DNA of 64,000 nt, from NCBI GenBank assembly GCA_016841245.1, contig JAENZN010000018.1:1-64000 (forward strand), given 5' to 3'. Positions 6,142 to 22,710 of the stretch are shown here, in pieces. This DNA is from Syntrophomonas sp. GTDB lineage: Bacteria; Bacillota; Syntrophomonadia; Syntrophomonadales; Syntrophomonadaceae. The notes beneath the pieces are model-generated. The model did not search any database. It was not told the DNA's origin and was given only the letters and a program-made list of their open reading frames with translations. Position 1 is the stretch's first letter, and each line of letters opens with the position of its first letter. Position numbers and translations under genes: made by a program.

Positions 6142-6785
6142 TGAGCATTCCGGCCCACGTTGAGCCATCAGTCCGGTCAGTGAGAGCCATCAATCCGTTG
6201 ATGGAGAACCACTATTCCCGAACAGAAAGCCATAGTGATCATCCTTTAGAATGTAACTATGTACTATAAAGTGTAAATACATTTTCAAAGGAGGTCATTT
6301 GAATGACCAGTTATCGTGAGATCAGCCAGGAAATCAGTCAGCGCAGCATCGCACTTAGTTGCAAATACTCGCGTAACACCGTTGTCAAAGTTATTAGGCG
6401 AGCTAAAGAGCTTAACAACCATTGGCCCTTAAGCTTAAAGCAAACTGACGCCAAATTGGAGAAATTATTCTAAAGGAACCGGCACAATCTGAGCGTAGGT
6501 ATCCGAATATATCCACAAGGAACTTATGCGCAATAGAGTATCGTTAAAACTGCTGTAGCAAGAATACTGCGAAGAGTGCCGCCAGCGTAGTGAGATACCC
6601 CTTATGTATTCCCAGTTTTGCTATCACTACCAAAAATTTTCGGAGAAGAAACGTGCTTCAATGCACATTCCCAGAAAACCCGCTTCCATAGTAGAGCTGG
6701 ATACCGGAGAAATAATTCCGGATTACCTATCTTACAGCCAGTACACTTACGTGGAAGTAGTTTTATCAATGAAACTGGACTATCG
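6142..6785 (+). mobile_element. IS21-family remnant with dead istA
   Basis: The left end at about 6142-6225 has the multiple GAGCCATCA(G/A)TCCG repeats typical of IS21-type termini. After AAAGGAGG, an istA-like frame begins at 6304 (MTSYREISQEISQRSIALSC, RNTVVKVIRRAKELN), then shifts frame after LEKLF near 6470. It continues as EYIHKELMRNR with a TAG at 6556-6558 where family members have tryptophan (LLWQEYC), then MYSQFCYHYQKFSEKKRASM and, after a deletion, ELDTGEIIPDYL and YSQYTYVEVVLS. The catalytic core and istB are gone. At about 6785 it is abutted by an IS3-type fragment in the opposite direction. Confidence 0.8.
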
Positions 6786-15199: not shown

Positions 15200-17059
15200 T
15201 TATTTATTTACGTCATTTTTCATAATATCTAGGTCTTTATGCTGGTTATATTCAGGTAATACCATACTTATTAGTTTTAATACATCTCCCCTGTTTAGAA
15301 AAGTGTTATGAATAAAAAGTTTTTCTATTTTCTCAATGATATTAGCCGATAAAGAGTCCTCATTTTCTTCTCTAATATATATCCTCTCATGCCTGGTAGC
15401 TGCCATTTGTTCACGGGCAGTGAAAAGCTCTTCGTAGAGCTTTTCCCCAGGCCTAATCCCCATAATTCGTATCTCAATGTCTTTGTCTGGTTCATATCCG
15501 TAAAGCTGAATCATATCTCTAGCTAGATCCATTATTTTAACCGGTTCACCCATATCCAATATGAAAGTTTCCCCGCCAGATGTAATAGCTCCGGCCTGTA
15601 TTACTAACTGTACTGCTTCTGGTATAGTCATAAAATAGCGGGTCATATCAGGATGGGTTACAGTAACTGGGCCTCCTTTTTGTATCTGCTGTTTAAATGT
15701 TGGAACCACGCTCCCCCTGCTTCCCAGAACATTTCCAAATCTAACCGATGCAAATTTAGTTTTGCTAATTCGATTAAAATCCCGAACCACCATTTCAGCA
15801 ATACGTTTGCTGGCTCCCATAACACTGGTAGGATTAACTGCCTTATCAGTTGAGATCAGAATAAAGGTGTCTACTCCTACCTTGTCTGATATTTCAACTA
15901 TATTTTTTGTACCCAGGATGTTGTTCTTTATGGCCTCTCCAGGATGTTTTTCCATCAGCGGAACATGTTTGTAGGCTGCTGCATGAAATACTACCTGCGG
16001 ACGGCTGCTCTTAAATACTTCCTGTAATTTATTACGGTCTTTTACATCACACAGTTCGGCCTCAATATGTAAGTTAGAAAACATTTCCTTCAATTCATTG
16101 TCAATATCAAAGAGGTTATTTTCGCTGTACTCCACAAGGATTATTTTTGCTGGATTATATCGGCAAATCTGACGGCACAATTCAGAACCGATAGAACCAC
16201 CTGCTCCGCTAACCAGAATATTTCTGTCTTTTATGTACCCGGCTATTTCATCAATATTTAAGTTTACTGGTTTGCGCCGCAGCAGGTCTTCTAATTGGAT
16301 CTCTCTAATCTCAGGTCTGCCATTAAGCAGTTCATCAGTACCATAAAATATCCTGGTTTTGATTCGAGTTTGGCGACATACATTATATATATCTCTGATT
16401 ACTGTACCATCAGCTGAAGGCATAGCGATGATAATCTCCTCAATGTCGTAATTGTCAACCAGCCGGGGTATATCCTGCCGGGGTCCCAACACAGGAATGC
16501 CGTATATACTCAGCTTTTGCTTAAGCGCATTATCATCCACAAAACCTACTGCCTGCAGACCCAGAGCATGATTATGGTCCAATTCACGAGCTACCATAGC
16601 TCCCGCATCACCAGCTCCCACTATCAGGGTTCTTTTAACAGCCTGTTTTTCTCCTTTAATAATAGCATTTCTTGTAATTCTCCAGAGCAGGCGGGAACCG
16701 ATAATCAATATTACCGCAAACAGCCAGGTAAGTATGTAGACACTGCGGGGCAGATACGGTAATGGGATTAAATAAATTAAAATCACCAGGGCTGCCATAC
16801 TGGAGGTGATCGCTTTTATTACACCACTTAATTCACCCAGACTAGCATACTGCCACATCCGGTTGTACAGCTTGAAGAAAACCATGCTGGCCAGTGCGAT
16901 AAGCGTCCACCAAGGAACCAGATATAAGGCGGCATCCATAAATTGCTCCGGGATATTGATATTGCCATCAAATCGCAGGAGCAGCGAGGTATAGAGTGCT
17001 ACGTTGACTAAAACAGAATCTATTATTATTAAGCCAATTAATCTAATCCAGTAAAACAT
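15200..17059 (-). CDS. membrane nucleotide-sugar 4,6-dehydratase (CapD/PglF/WbpM-like)
   Basis: About 619 residues: four N-terminal membrane helices (to about 110), a first Rossmann-like domain (RTLIVGAGDAGAMVARELD) and a catalytic SDR domain (LVSGAGGSIGSELCRQI, then VFHAAAYKHVPLMEKHP and STDKAVNPTSVMGASKR). As in PglF/WbpM, the usual catalytic tyrosine position is a methionine (SVMGASK). These enzymes dehydrate UDP-GlcNAc to a 4-keto-6-deoxy sugar, the first step to bacillosamine, QuiNAc or FucNAc. I chose ATG 17059 after CGGGGG. The gene overlaps the end of the ligase gene by 17 bases. Confidence 0.9.
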   Translation of the reverse strand: MFYWIRLIGLIIIDSVLVNVALYTSLLLRFDGNINIPEQFMDAALYLVPWWTLIALASMVFFKLYNRMWQYASLGELSGVIKAITSSMAALVILIYLIPLPYLPRSVYILTWLFAVILIIGSRLLWRITRNAIIKGEKQAVKRTLIVGAGDAGAMVARELDHNHALGLQAVGFVDDNALKQKLSIYGIPVLGPRQDIPRLVDNYDIEEIIIAMPSADGTVIRDIYNVCRQTRIKTRIFYGTDELLNGRPEIREIQLEDLLRRKPVNLNIDEIAGYIKDRNILVSGAGGSIGSELCRQICRYNPAKIILVEYSENNLFDIDNELKEMFSNLHIEAELCDVKDRNKLQEVFKSSRPQVVFHAAAYKHVPLMEKHPGEAIKNNILGTKNIVEISDKVGVDTFILISTDKAVNPTSVMGASKRIAEMVVRDFNRISKTKFASVRFGNVLGSRGSVVPTFKQQIQKGGPVTVTHPDMTRYFMTIPEAVQLVIQAGAITSGGETFILDMGEPVKIMDLARDMIQLYGYEPDKDIEIRIMGIRPGEKLYEELFTAREQMAATRHERIYIREENEDSLSANIIEKIEKLFIHNTFLNRGDVLKLISMVLPEYNQHKDLDIMKNDVNK

Positions 17060-19940
17060 AGAAACCCCCGACAATCATAATTAGTAATTGATCATACAGT
17101 TCCATTAATGCGGTATCATCAGCAAATTGATCTTTAATTTCATTTGCTTCTTCTTTTTCTCCTGACTGATAAAGGGATGCAGCATACCATATGCTGGCTT
17201 TTTGTATATTATCTGGCAAATTTTTCAGGTCACTGGGATAAAACTTTACATAATCAATTCTGAATGTTGTTCCTTCTGCCACACTGCCTGTTCCTAATCT
17301 AAAACTACGTTGATTAAGACCTTCACCATGCTTAAGCACCTGCTGAGCCACCTGCCAGATAGTACCGTCCTGTATATCCTCATTTCCGTTATAAAAAGTA
17401 AAGCTGGTATTTTCCGACTGCTCCCCTGAATAAACCTTTCCCCATATTCCCAGCTTAGGTCCCTTCTCTCCTTCCGGGCTGTTGCTGCATATGATTACTT
17501 TATAACGTACTTCTGTGATATACTCTTGACCAGCAATCACCGGTATACTGCTGCCAAGTGATAATATTGTTGGCCAATCATACATGTCATGCTTGGCAGT
17601 CATCTCCATACATTTGTCATTGCTGGCTTCTTCATCCTCAACCACTGCTGCTTTCCAGTTTTCATTTTCAAATTTGGTGTTTTCAAAAAATGGGTCGGCA
17701 AATTCCAGAGTCAGCATGTTATCTGTCATTGGTTCTAGAGTATAAGCTGCTGCCTGGTAATTACCTGAAACATAGTGGGCTTTGCCTGCAGCAACTTGCG
17801 AATCATAGGATAAATTAAACTCATTCTTTTCTTTGCTTTCAAGTCTTTCTCGCTGTTTACCTGCTTTCTCAGTAAGTGAAAGGATTTCCTGGGCATATTG
17901 CTGTGTTTTCGCTATATCTTTATCACAATAAGCTTCTATCCCTACCTGCAGAGCATTAATAGCGGCATTATATGAATTGATGTCCCAGGGATTTGCTGTA
18001 ACAGCAGCCTGCGCCTGTTTTATCCCCTGATCTACATCTCCCATCTGTGCACTGATGCTGTATAGTATCCCGCGGGCTCTAATGTTGAAGGGTGCTGTTT
18101 GGTCCACTTTATTCATTTCATCGTAAGCTTTGTTTAAATATTCCCGAGACACATCGGTATTGTCTGCCTGCACCTGTCTATAAATTATGGCATATATTTG
18201 CGCCAGGTTGGCATGGTACATACAGTTATATGAATCCCATATTACTGCCTGCTTATAATATTTTTCAGCCCCACTTAGTTCCTCCAGCTGTTTGCTTTGG
18301 TTTTCAGCCTCCTGCATTCTTTCTAAGGCGCCCTGTCCTTTACTTGCATAACTATCTGCCAGGGCAAAGGAGCTTCCACAGGCTAATAATAACAGGGCTA
18401 TTAATGAAGCAGCGGTAATATTTATAAAAGGTATATTAGGGACCAGCTTGTTTTGGGTAATGTTTTCCACTTGACCAGCTGAATTGATCAGTGCCAATAA
18501 TGTCCATAATAAAATACTTATAGCCGGTAGGGACAAATCAAAGTCTATAAAGGAATGCAAACCTATACATACCGCTGCGACAGCCGTGCCCCATATTTTA
18601 ACCATTTCGTTCTGTTCATTTCTTACTCTGCCCTTATTAACTTGATAAATTTTATATAGGCTGAAAAGAAACAATACCCATATACTCATAAAGGCAATTA
18701 TCCCCAGAGTACCAGCTTCTACCCATATCTGCAGGAATCCATTGTGAAGCTCGGCCGACCAGGCTATTTGGTCTGCATACTGATGATAAAGGGCATCCCA
18801 TCCTCCTGCTCCAGTACCGATCACAGGATGATCTTTAATTATATCCATTCCCCAGCTGGCAAAATTAAGCCGGCTGGTGAAACTGGTACTGTCTGTAGCA
18901 CTTACTCCCGATATTTCATTAAGGATTTGATTAGAAATCTGATTCTGATTGTTTAGGAACAGGCTGGTACTGCCTATTACAACTACAAGAATTATTGTTC
19001 CTATCAGAATAGGTAATTGTTTTTTCTTCCCGCTGCTTAACTTGGCCATTACTTCCCATAAGATTGGTGCCAGAAGACTGAGTACCAGACCAATCAGGAA
19101 AAATACTATCGCTGTTCCGGTATTTCCATTTAAAATAGCGGGAATAAACCCGGCTGCGGCAATCAGTACTGCTACCGCACTTAATGCCAGACTATATGCG
19201 GCTCTAATCCGGTACTGTCCCGGCATGACTACCAGCAATAGTATGGCCCCGATGATTATTATCAGCCAGGCTCCCTTGGAAAAGGTGGCCAGAGTTACCA
19301 GTAATAATAGGTAGGTGATGCCTGCATAAAGCAGCCTCCATTTTAATTCCTGACTGCTTATCCACTGGCTGATTGCTATTAAGGCCATGACCCCTAAATA
19401 TAGTCCGGCAGCATTGGAATATTGCATAGTGGTGTTGATCGCTCTGCCATTAAAAGCATCCGGATAATTATAATAACCCCAGGCAGCCAGAATTCCTATA
19501 AGTGCTACCCCTGTCGCACTGGCCAGCAATATTTTTAATATATTGTCATAATCGCGGTAAGTCTTTACTATTTCGCTGATTATCCAGAAAATCATGGAAT
19601 AATTAAGGACCTTGAGAAAACCATATAGTGCTTCTCCCTTATCTACCGCTCCCAGCAGTGACAGGAGATAAGCCCCGGTATAGGCCAGCACGGCCAGGTC
19701 CAGGGGAGTTTTCAAGAATGTATAATCCCGATTGATTATCTTCTGACTCCATACACCTATAAAGACCAGAGCTGTAATGATATGGGTTATAAACATCTCT
19801 TTGGCAAAGAAAAGACCCCGGAAATAAGGGGGATAAAATAGTAATAGGCCGGCAGCAATAAACATGGCTGTCGGCAGCCAGGGAACACTTCTGGTTGCGG
19901 TTTTTGAGGCTTTTTGGTTTTTGGATTTCTTTTTTGACAT
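17043..19940 (-). CDS. O-antigen ligase-like membrane protein with TPR and C-terminal beta-sandwich-like domain
   Basis: About 965 residues. The first ~530 hold 12 or more membrane helices with the Wzy_C/O-antigen ligase core, including GTGAGGWDALYHQYADQI and ELHNGFLQIWVEAGTLG. Next come tetratricopeptide-like helices (about 560-760: AEKYYKQAVIWDSYNCMYHA, ANLAQIYAIIYR). Finally there is a beta-rich region (about 770-930: DPFFENTKFENENW, VIAGQEYITEVRYKV, RIDYVKFYPSD) that resembles carbohydrate-binding modules of the CBM4/9 kind. It likely joins or polymerises surface glycan outside the membrane. I chose ATG 19940, with AAGGAG upstream; the 35 residues open before it come from the neighbouring repeat array. 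Confidence 0.82.
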   Translation of the reverse strand: MSKKKSKNQKASKTATRSVPWLPTAMFIAAGLLLFYPPYFRGLFFAKEMFITHIITALVFIGVWSQKIINRDYTFLKTPLDLAVLAYTGAYLLSLLGAVDKGEALYGFLKVLNYSMIFWIISEIVKTYRDYDNILKILLASATGVALIGILAAWGYYNYPDAFNGRAINTTMQYSNAAGLYLGVMALIAISQWISSQELKWRLLYAGITYLLLLVTLATFSKGAWLIIIIGAILLLVVMPGQYRIRAAYSLALSAVAVLIAAAGFIPAILNGNTGTAIVFFLIGLVLSLLAPILWEVMAKLSSGKKKQLPILIGTIILVVVIGSTSLFLNNQNQISNQILNEISGVSATDSTSFTSRLNFASWGMDIIKDHPVIGTGAGGWDALYHQYADQIAWSAELHNGFLQIWVEAGTLGIIAFMSIWVLFLFSLYKIYQVNKGRVRNEQNEMVKIWGTAVAAVCIGLHSFIDFDLSLPAISILLWTLLALINSAGQVENITQNKLVPNIPFINITAASLIALLLLACGSSFALADSYASKGQGALERMQEAENQSKQLEELSGAEKYYKQAVIWDSYNCMYHANLAQIYAIIYRQVQADNTDVSREYLNKAYDEMNKVDQTAPFNIRARGILYSISAQMGDVDQGIKQAQAAVTANPWDINSYNAAINALQVGIEAYCDKDIAKTQQYAQEILSLTEKAGKQRERLESKEKNEFNLSYDSQVAAGKAHYVSGNYQAAAYTLEPMTDNMLTLEFADPFFENTKFENENWKAAVVEDEEASNDKCMEMTAKHDMYDWPTILSLGSSIPVIAGQEYITEVRYKVIICSNSPEGEKGPKLGIWGKVYSGEQSENTSFTFYNGNEDIQDGTIWQVAQQVLKHGEGLNQRSFRLGTGSVAEGTTFRIDYVKFYPSDLKNLPDNIQKASIWYAASLYQSGEKEEANEIKDQFADDTALMELYDQLLIMIVGGFYVLLD

Positions 19941-19974
19941 TATGTACTCCTTAGTGTTAGGTGTTAGGGAAGAA

Positions 19975-21130
19975 CCTATAGGCCGCTGACTTCGCTGACT
20001 CATATGACTTACGCAGACCTTTTTATTCTGTTTTGCTTTTTGCATTATTTTCTTTTAATTTTTGTGTCATTACCAAAGTTTATCAATATAACTGTTAGGC
20101 ATTTGGGACGAGGCGTTAGGCCGCTGACTTCACTGACTTTTATGACCTACGCAGACTTATTTATTTTATTTTACTTTTTTGCATTATTTTTTCTTTTGAT
20201 TTTTATACCATCATCAAAGTTTATTAATATATCTGTTAGGCTTTTGGGACGAGGCGCTAGGCCGCTGACTTCACTGACTTTTATGACTTACGCAGACTTT
20301 TTCATTTTATTCTACTTTTTTGCATTATTTTTCTTTTAATTTTTATATCATCGCCAAAGTTAATCAACAAACCTATTTCTATATCAGTGGCTTTCAAATA
20401 ATTTATTAACTGAGCTTCATGTGCTTTTGATATATCGCTAGCAACTTTCAGTTCAACTATCACTTTATCTTCTATGAACAAATCTGCAACATATTCACCT
20501 ATAACAATTTTTTCATAAAGTACCTTTATTGGATACTGTTGTATTACTTTTATTTCTTGCATTCTCAACTCTATTGCCAGAGCATTTTCATAGACTTTTT
20601 CTAAAAAACCAGCACCTAGCTTGTGCCAAACTGTATATGCACAACCGATGATTTTTTCAGTTAGATCGCTGTATAGATAGTTTTGGTTCATGTCTGACTC
20701 CAGAGGAATAGGCCGCTGACTTCACTGACTTTTATGACTTACGCAGACCTTTTTATTTTATTTTGCTTTTTTCCATTATTTTTCTTTTAATTTTTATATC
20801 ATCATCAAAGTTTGTTAATATATCTGTTAGGCTTTTGGGACGAGGCGTTAGGCCGCTGACCTCGCTGACTTTTGTGACTTTCGCAGACCTCTTTTATTTG
20901 GTTTTATTATTATGCATTATTTTTTCTTTTGATTTTTATACAATCATCAAAGTTTATTAATATATCTGTTAGGCATTTGGGGAGAGGCGTTAGGCCGCTG
21001 ACTTCGCTGACTTTTATGACCTACGCAGACTTTTTTATTTTGTTTTATTTTTTTTCATATTTTTTCCCAATTTTTATATCATCACCGAAGTTTATTAATA
21101 ACCCTACTTTTATAACTGTTAGGCGGGAGG
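19975..21130. repeat. array of ~140-bp repeats around a GxxExxY gene
   Basis: A conserved motif starting GGCCGCTGAC(T/C)TC(A/G)CTGAC occurs at 19981, 20119, 20260, 20711, 20851 and 20993, with spacings 138, 141, 451, 140 and 142; the 451 gap contains the GxxExxY gene. Each unit also carries, on the minus strand, a copy of that gene's 3' end. The real gene has LLINFGDDIKIKRK. The unit ending near 21125 reads TVIKVGLLINFGDDIKIGKK, the first reads LINFGNDTKIKRK, and the second LINFDDGIKIKRK. The units are thus decayed 3' ends of GxxExxY genes plus their downstream flank, amplified in tandem. Confidence 0.85.
20302..20691 (-). CDS. GxxExxY protein
   Basis: A 129-residue member of the GxxExxY family. 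The naming motif lies in KLGAGFLEKVYENALAIEL (about 23-41: G-F-L-E-K-V-Y). The following core (EYVADLFIEDKVIVELKVAS, about 68-87) has the D...E-x-K pattern of PDDEXK-type nuclease folds. The biological role of the family is not established. GGAG lies seven bases before the ATG. The gene stands alone between wzz and the ligase and is flanked on both sides by repeats derived from its own 3' end, so it behaves like a small selfish or mobile unit (inference). Confidence 0.88.
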   Translation of the reverse strand: MNQNYLYSDLTEKIIGCAYTVWHKLGAGFLEKVYENALAIELRMQEIKVIQQYPIKVLYEKIVIGEYVADLFIEDKVIVELKVASDISKAHEAQLINYLKATDIEIGLLINFGDDIKIKRKIMQKSRIK

Positions 21131-21142
21131 CGGATAAACTCC

Positions 21143-22438
21143 TTACTCTTTACCCCTAACCCCTGTCTCCTCACTTTCGTCCCCTTCTCGCATGTATTCG
21201 ATGAAGAATACTGCTAGGGTGGACATCATTAGGCCGAGGATGCCGGCGATGGCTACGTTTAACATTTTGTTGGGTTTTACTGGTTTTTCCGGCACTAATG
21301 CTGCGGAGGTGGTGGTTATGCTGTTTTCGGCCAGGTTAATATTACCGGATATCTTCAACTCCGCTATTTTGGCGGTCAATAGATCTACATTGGTTTCTCT
21401 CCGGGTTACTTCGTTTTGCAGTTTAGTTTCTTCAATTTGATTTTCGGTCAGTTGGGCTTCCAGGTCAGGTATTTCTTGTTCCAACCGGGCAATGTTGGTT
21501 TTGGTTGTTTTTATACCGGCTTCTGTTTCCGCCAGCTGCGATGATTTATCATTTAATAGATTATACAGGTTGATGTAGGCTTCATTGATATTTTCTCTGA
21601 CTACCTTACCGTCTTTTATATCTATGCCATCCATATCTACCGGTAATACCCCGTCGGCAGTTTCATTAGTTAATAGAGTAACTGGGGTTTCGGCCAGACT
21701 TTTCTGCAGCTGCTCAACACCTTTTTCCAGGCCGGCATACTGTATTTCCAGGAGTGCAAGACTAGACTGAAAAGTCCCCAGATCTGAATTCTTCTGGGCA
21801 AGTTGAGTGCTGAGGAATTCGATAGACCTGGAACTGAGCTTATATTCTTTTAATTTGTCGTTTGCAGCCTCTAGCTCATCCTCTTCACCTTGCAGCAGTT
21901 TGTTTTCCATTGTTTCCACAGAATTCTTCAATTTTTGGTTATTTATCTGGGTTATATAAAGGACAAATTCTTCTCTCAGGGTATTGGATATCTGGGCAGC
22001 TAATTTCGGGTCACTGTTGCTTATAGTTATTTTCATAAGGTTGGTATCTTCTAATTGTTCAGCTGTTATCATAGCCCCCAGCTGCCTGCGGCTATAGGGA
22101 AGTTTCATTTTATCAATAACCGTCTGCAGGACTGAGGCCGTTTTCAGCTGCTGTACACAGCTTTCCACACTCATATAGGGCAGTTCTCCCAGTTCATCGA
22201 CTATATCTTCCATATTGCTTGACTCTGCGTTTTTGCTATTTTCGGTTTGGGCTACAGCTACTATGGTGCTTGCTTCATATACCGGGTCTAAAAAGTAAAT
22301 ACTTATTATTCCACTCAGCAGCATCGCCACCATAGTTACGCTGACAATGGTATATTTCCATTTACTCAGTGTTTTCAAAATATCCCGCAGGTCTATTTCT
22401 TCCTCAATGTATTCGTATCCGTTATTTTCTCTGCTCAT
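21143..22438 (-). CDS. Wzz/GumC-like chain-length determinant protein
   Basis: A 431-residue polysaccharide co-polymerase. A cytoplasmic start (YEYIEEEIDLRDILKTLSKW) is followed by a first membrane helix (about 31-52), a long extracytoplasmic domain (about 53-395) with extensive coiled coil (about 170-370), and a second helix (about 392-412) preceded by the proline-rich PEKPVKPNKML typical of Wzz. It sets polymer length with Wzy. No fused tyrosine kinase is present and none lies nearby in the window. AGGAGAG precedes the ATG. Confidence 0.9.
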   Translation of the reverse strand: MSRENNGYEYIEEEIDLRDILKTLSKWKYTIVSVTMVAMLLSGIISIYFLDPVYEASTIVAVAQTENSKNAESSNMEDIVDELGELPYMSVESCVQQLKTASVLQTVIDKMKLPYSRRQLGAMITAEQLEDTNLMKITISNSDPKLAAQISNTLREEFVLYITQINNQKLKNSVETMENKLLQGEEDELEAANDKLKEYKLSSRSIEFLSTQLAQKNSDLGTFQSSLALLEIQYAGLEKGVEQLQKSLAETPVTLLTNETADGVLPVDMDGIDIKDGKVVRENINEAYINLYNLLNDKSSQLAETEAGIKTTKTNIARLEQEIPDLEAQLTENQIEETKLQNEVTRRETNVDLLTAKIAELKISGNINLAENSITTTSAALVPEKPVKPNKMLNVAIAGILGLMMSTLAVFFIEYMREGDESEETGVRGKE

Positions 22439-22634: not shown

Positions 22635-22710
22635 GGTGTCAGGCACTGACTTATTAACCTATTCTCTCAGCACTCCAAAGGAATAAGCTAATAAGTCAGT
22701 ACCTGACACC
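22635..22710. repeat. long inverted repeat, GGTGTCAGGC family
   Basis: Arms 22635-22656 and 22689-22710 (22 bases, one mismatch) begin with GGTGTCAGGCACTGAC and enclose a 32-base loop. It lies just past the amidase stop codon and could act as its transcription terminator. It shares its GTCAGGC start with the palindromes at 37651 and 42419, so it belongs to a dispersed repeat family. Confidence 0.8.

Follow-up and report, generated by a model that had tools for sequence, protein, structure and literature searches.

In REPIN/RAYT systems, short gene-less extragenic units with inverted arms lie beside one gene, sometimes in tandem clusters, and singlets look like relics (PMC3116915). The intervening sequences (IVS) of 23S rRNA carry one small gene, S23p, between complementary ends; their distribution is patchy, and their mobility has long been suspected and proposed (PMC4990558). 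IS/MITE elements are recognized by inverted ends, a single gene, non-autonomous derivatives with internal deletions, and sites that occur both empty and filled. PD-(D/E)XK homing endonucleases, such as I-Ssp6803I, are also known. Each of these systems shares features with the GxxExxY genes analyzed here, one of which lies within a tandem array in a 64-kb stretch of DNA (hereafter, the window).

The likeness to each system is accompanied by differences. GxxExxY proteins are predicted PD-(D/E)XK nucleases, whereas RAYT is an HUH/Y1 transposase, and their genes are bounded by tandem 9–10-nt words at low copy number, in contrast to REP palindromes. GxxExxY elements resemble REPINs, including gene-less inverted doublets in extragenic space (G053, G022, and Methylotenera), without being members. 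Unlike the 23S rRNA IVS, which lie in helices 9/25/45, they encode an unrelated protein (PF13366, not the four-helix-bundle PF05635) and use 9–10-nt rather than 7-nt words; the GxxExxY loci examined showed no rRNA similarity and were not in 23S rRNA genes. Relatives of the window's element have terminal inverted repeats and occur as multiple copies in unrelated flanks, as IS elements do, although the window copy is without a recognizable 5' arm, the ends are word arrays, and the element encodes no transposase of the DDE, HUH, serine, or tyrosine type. Homing endonucleases likewise have a small nuclease gene of the same superfamily as sole cargo, but they occupy introns or inteins, whereas GxxExxY genes sit at gene junctions between inverted arms. 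The predicted fold and the D-ExK-QxxxY residues are shared with Cas4, RecB, and lambda exonuclease; however, GxxExxY proteins are much smaller, and no CRISPR or recombination operon context was seen. Since the defining features of IS/MITE, REPIN/RAYT, and IVS (a known transposase, an rRNA location, S23p) were not found, the elements would represent a new variant of mobile DNA, and there is a real chance that they form a distinct class. In the open-access literature, preprints excluded, GxxExxY is mentioned only in passing, in two papers, and we found no open-access PMC papers on the arm sequences or on PDDEXK_3.

A tandem array around an intact GxxExxY gene

The initial annotation of the window described six motif copies at near-constant steps of 138–142 bp around an intact GxxExxY gene, each retaining a decayed version of the gene's 3' end and the same downstream flank. 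Recomputing the positions bears this out: the TAGGCCGCTGAC... motif starts at 19979, 20117, 20258, 20709, 20849, and 20991, with start-to-start steps of 138, 141, 451, 140, and 142 bp, the 451-bp step being the site of the gene itself (20302–20691, minus strand). Array and gene together span ~1.2 kb between a wzz-like gene, so named from its sequence and position rather than a family search, and an O-antigen-ligase-type gene (Table 1). The six units are 138–142 bp long and 77–94% identical to one another. Those adjoining the gene (U2, U3, and U4) are the closest, and no copy of the unit occurs elsewhere in the 3.9-Mb genome.

Table 1. Features of the array and its surroundings (window coordinates)
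Feature	Position	Strand	Description
O-antigen-ligase-type (Wzy_C) gene	17043–19940	-	Downstream neighbor; true start 19940, not 20045
Left outer 7-nt-word arm	19947–19971		CTCCTTAGTGTTAGGTGTTAGGGAA; resembles S23p/IVP element arms
Unit U1	19979–20116	-	Gene-less derivative: gene tail + 3' arm, tail frameshifted
Unit U2	20117–20257	-	Gene-less derivative; indel in tail
3' arm of full element	20258–20298	-	Minus strand TCTGCGTAAG TCATAAAAG TCAGTGAAG TCAGCGGCCTA
Intact GxxExxY gene, 129 aa	20302–20691	-	Predicted Cas4/lambda-exo-type PD-(D/E)XK fold; E31, Q52, D70, E80, K82, Q94, Y98
Leader of intact gene	20692–20708	-	CCTCTGGAGTCAGAC preceding ATG; no 5' arm recognizable
Unit U4	20709–20848	-	Gene-less derivative; tail ILINFDDDIKIKRKIMEKSKIK*
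Unit U5	20849–20990	-	Gene-less derivative; indel in tail
Unit U6	20991–21117	-	Most diverged derivative; longest tail (VIKVGLLINFGDDIKIG)
Right outer 7-nt-word arm	21139–21175		Encodes Wzz last residues (EETGVRGKE) + stop
Wzz-like chain-length determinant gene	21143–22438	-	Upstream neighbor of insertion site

Read on the gene strand, a gene-less unit consists of the last ~65–75 nt of the gene (~22 codons), a 3' arm (TCTGCGTAAG TCATAAAAG TCAGYGAAG TCAGCGGCC), and a ~25-nt, heptamer-like spacer (ACGCCTCGTCCCAAAAGCCTAACAG) that the gene unit lacks. Units U4 and U6 were recovered by a protein search; U6 matched the gene-tail profile at 21042–21119 with 14.9 bits, and a second unit matched weakly. 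The likeness between units and gene is one of DNA and does not end with the stop codon but extends over the 3' flank, which rules out chance coding similarity. Several tails carry frameshifting indels and are therefore relics. The units comprise only the 3' half of the element, with no matching 5' arm recognizable, and the 5' arm of the window element itself has probably been lost. A CRISPR-like array was considered and rejected, since the spacers are not unique and the gene's own tail lies inside the units.

The apparent 35-aa N-terminal extension of the ligase, which had been attributed to the array, is an open-reading-frame artifact: homologues in related genomes match from MSKKK at 19940, a start with its own AAGGAG ribosome-binding site. 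Outside the array, the two 7-nt-word stretches stand in inverted orientation and may be the arms of an S23p-type element. Two further repeats were observed in the window. A near-perfect 30-nt inverted repeat with a 16-nt loop (GGTGTCAGGCACTGACTTATTAACCTATTC) lies between two genes at 22635–22710, perhaps as a terminator or a further small mobile element, and a 22-bp tandem repeat is present in 2.3 copies at 6162–6211.

The protein, its arms, and gene-less copies

The window protein matches TIGR04256 (E 2e-41, 140.9 bits; curated cut-off 35) and PF13366 (PDDEXK_3; E 7e-41, 139.7 bits; cut-off 22). It has no known transposase motif, its family matches being PDDEXK_3 only, and searches found neither phage homologues nor PDB sequence homologues. 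An AlphaFold2 model built from a 48-row alignment of the window and locus proteins (pLDDT 93, pTM 0.86) was compared with solved structures using Foldseek. The top match was Cas4 SSO0001 (4ic1, with a modest E of 2e-4), followed by LHK-Exo and lambda exonuclease and then by Holliday-junction resolvases, and the protein is predicted to adopt a PD-(D/E)XK nuclease fold of the Cas4/lambda-exonuclease type. Across 31–87 sequences, residues E31, D70, E80-x-K82, and Q94-x3-Y98 are fully or almost fully conserved. For the closer pairs, which can be measured well, dN/dS is 0.08–0.21 both within and between genomes, indicating purifying selection.

Drawing on one-genome-per-species data, we inspected the flanking sequence of 80 GxxExxY genes from numerous bacterial phyla and one ANME-1 archaeon, and for 79 loci scored the 5' arm against the reverse complement of the 3' arm. 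Inverted arms of tandem 9–10-nt words were found at about three quarters of these loci, compared with ~1% of shuffles; TAGGACGCAGATGAACGCAGATT upstream and AATCTGCGTAAATCTGCGTCCTA downstream exemplify the arms seen in most loci. Mean scores were 18.2 for a locus's own pair, 9.9 for mispaired loci, 9.1 for flanks 1.2 kb away, and 8.2 for shuffles. A score of 12 was exceeded by 57/79 loci and by 17/1580 shuffles, with about a quarter of the loci falling under the threshold; with slightly wider flanks, 59/79 loci lay above the 99th percentile of the shuffles. Arm words recur at a lag of 9–10 (0.38–0.40 versus 0.27). They vary among loci (CGCAGAT, CGCTGAT, CACGGAT, ACAGGATT, CACAAAG, CACGAATT, and others) and are the same inside one locus. 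Arm similarity tracks protein similarity (Mantel r 0.36, exceeding all 2000 permutations). Distant members have arms too, for example at radA|GxxExxY in Bacteroides and fabD|GxxExxY|fabG in Sphingomonas; the Persicobacter, Gemmatirosa, and Prevotella members showed no clear arms.

Gene-less copies, or minis, adjoin the gene in many loci, often in tandem (L062, L064, L067, L068, L070, L087, L118, and others), so that the array in the window exemplifies a pattern seen repeatedly. As in the window, a deletion derivative in G050 and an extra unit in G037 consist of gene tail plus 3' arm. A universal tail breakpoint was considered for the minis and rejected, since a mini in G047 retains the head of the gene. 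Solo minis distant from every GxxExxY gene also occur in G022 and in G053, the latter with three related ~110-bp units, and some genomes with minis have no GxxExxY match at all, for example G007 and G053 (G053 being only 75% complete). Units lying far from any such gene in most genomes had been named as grounds against a mobile module. In part this is what is seen, since gene-less minis do lie at a distance from genes, and it fits non-autonomous derivatives. Sequence comparison shows minis and solo-arm scars to be products of deleting most of the gene; these products also persist or spread, and we infer that the minis have transposed.

Empty, scarred, and filled junctions

The initial annotation proposed repeated insertion, deletion, or copy-out of one unit at the same site, and suggested that empty sites be sought. 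Such sites were found. Between wzz and the ligase gene, G003, of the same genus, has a 54-nt gap and no array; the gap is likewise short in G034 and measures ~175 nt, without the gene, in G001. The same junction holds a lone 3' arm (ATCAGTGCAATCCGTGTGATCTGTGGCC) in G022, of another genus, and a complete element, with a confirmed gene and an extra gene-less stretch, in G015, of a third genus. The junction is therefore seen in four states: empty (G003), scarred (G022), full (G015), and amplified (the window).

A second junction, dapE|prmB (names assigned by reading the sequence), was found in 49/52 genomes of the genus Methylotenera. Of these, 48 were read: no fewer than 17 are empty (5–33 nt), about a dozen contain a 73–84 bp gene-less mini or a decayed form of it (GCCACAGAG...CTCTGTGGC), two have larger nested minis, and four have a full element with other arm words. 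The full element supplies a new dapE C-terminus and stop at L106/L237, and at L238 the prmB start codon is now provided by the first arm word. The third junction, map|methyltransferase, was located in nearly all of 300 Flavobacterium-genus genomes. Reading 45 of these in detail revealed directly abutting genes in 20, a 176-bp insert with arm-like words in one, a complete GxxExxY gene flanked by arms, whose words are of several types, in 12, and a partial gene in one. Empty junctions in both genera are without arm words.

Two junctions of a flagellar operon in a related genus vary similarly: at FlgK|FlgN, two genomes have the full element and two others a scar, and at FlgL|DUF6470, two have the full element, one a decayed form, and another a mini. 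GxxExxY insertions recur at several junctions of this operon (G012, G030, G041, G047, and G050).

Copies within one genome were also compared. In a Candidatus Scalindua genome with 15 GxxExxY matches, three copies on different contigs are 88–90% identical over 450–480 bp, and a further pair 889 bp apart is 90% identical; the likeness ends at the arms, beyond which the flanking sequences are unrelated. Altogether, comparison across genomes shows GxxExxY genes to be, as far as sequence can tell, the single gene of a short mobile DNA element, ~450–550 bp long, with inverted arms at its ends. The element was described initially as a mobile module, and this part is upheld by the empty, mini, scar, and full states and by multicopy elements that end at their arms. 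Repeated copy-out as the origin of the array fares less well, since tandem amplification of one 5'-truncated derivative would explain it more simply. The flagellar insertions suggest a preference for operon gene junctions. At some junctions, vertical inheritance of an old insertion may account for what is seen, in place of repeated events. A target-site duplication could not be fixed because the flanks of empty and filled sites are too diverged (~75–92% identical at best).

Proposed mechanism and its alternatives

We propose that the GxxExxY nuclease recognizes the word arms, perhaps when folded into a hairpin or cruciform, and that cutting there would liberate, move, or copy the element, with arm-bearing minis served in trans. 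After insertion at the wzz|ligase junction, one element would have lost the 5' arm and given rise to a tail-plus-3'-arm derivative. Tandem amplification of this derivative to either side of the surviving gene would have followed, probably via recombination between units or spacer words. We put the probability of this model as a whole (nuclease-driven movement, derived minis, and an amplified array in the window) at roughly two in three. That the protein acts on the arms and moves the element is suggested by its being the constant sole gene, by its catalytic residues, and by its co-divergence with the arms.

The same observations bear on whether the gene might be a passenger or accessory in an element that is moved by another enzyme in trans, or by replication or repair acting on the inverted arms. 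The lack of a known transposase motif would fit such a role, as would the minis in genomes without a GxxExxY match, although G053 is incomplete. However, a single gene with invariant catalytic residues, under purifying selection between closer copies, co-diverging with its arms and associated with them from Firmicutes to ANME-1, Flavobacterium, and Sphingomonas, makes a passenger unlikely. A nuclease could instead cut empty sites or minis carrying arm words, with repair copying the gene in, so that spread would occur by gene conversion and not by transposition. There are known PD-(D/E)XK homing endonucleases, the same junctions are occupied by elements that differ in their arm words, and the window gene lies inside an array of homologous minis; yet the Scalindua copies have unrelated flanks and the empty junctions are without arm words, and we consider homing distinctly improbable.

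Processing at the RNA level, in which the arm stem of an IVS-like insert is cut from the transcript by RNase III or the encoded protein, draws on the fact that S23p/IVP genes share the layout and in some cases lie inside 23S rRNA, where RNase III cuts the IVS stems (PMC4990558). Against this, 12 orthologous minis give no covariation support (term +0.98, from few sequences) and the 5' arm decays alone, the words are conserved while the linkers between them are unpaired (L081), and no 23S sequence adjoins the GxxExxY genes examined; we regard it as very unlikely. Finally, the units are tandem, adjacent, and restricted to one locus in the window's genome, as would be expected if slippage and 3'-end decay had acted on a resident gene with no mobile element. 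This is barely tenable given that the junction is empty in same-genus G003 and full in G015, and that the same arms, minis, and polymorphism are seen again across many phyla.

S23p genes have a comparable layout. In relatives of the window's genome, PF05635 (S23p/IVP) genes (L139–L158) lie between inverted arms built of 7-nt words (lag-7 identity 0.71 versus 0.29; e.g., TTAGGAG). The arms are clear in 16 of 20 loci and occur both at intergenic sites and within 23S rRNA genes. These arms may explain the CCTAACGCCTAAC-type heptamer repeats in these genomes. The window's own genome contains one S23p/IVP gene (G000:C37:311409-311711, L173), with an in-frame TAG and AATTTTC-type flanking words. GxxExxY elements look like a second type beside S23p, with another protein and another word length. 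More tentatively, and with somewhat less than even confidence, we suggest that the two are branches of an unrecognized class of very small autonomous mobile DNA, for whose movement, via tandem-word arms, a stand-alone Cas4-like nuclease (or else a four-helix-bundle protein) would be responsible. Its minis would be spread over many bacterial phyla and some archaea, and operon junctions would be recurrent insertion sites.

The annotation "GxxExxY protein" is common but has had no explanation. If the gene is indeed the engine of a mobile element without a known transposase, the family would gain a function, many noncoding repeats at gene junctions (CGCAGAT-, CACGAAT-, and CACAGAG-type words) would be accounted for, and there would be a handle on the long-open question of the mobility of S23p rRNA intervening sequences. 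The arms are also a source of change in gene boundaries, providing stop codons (dapE and probably wzz) and start codons (prmB).
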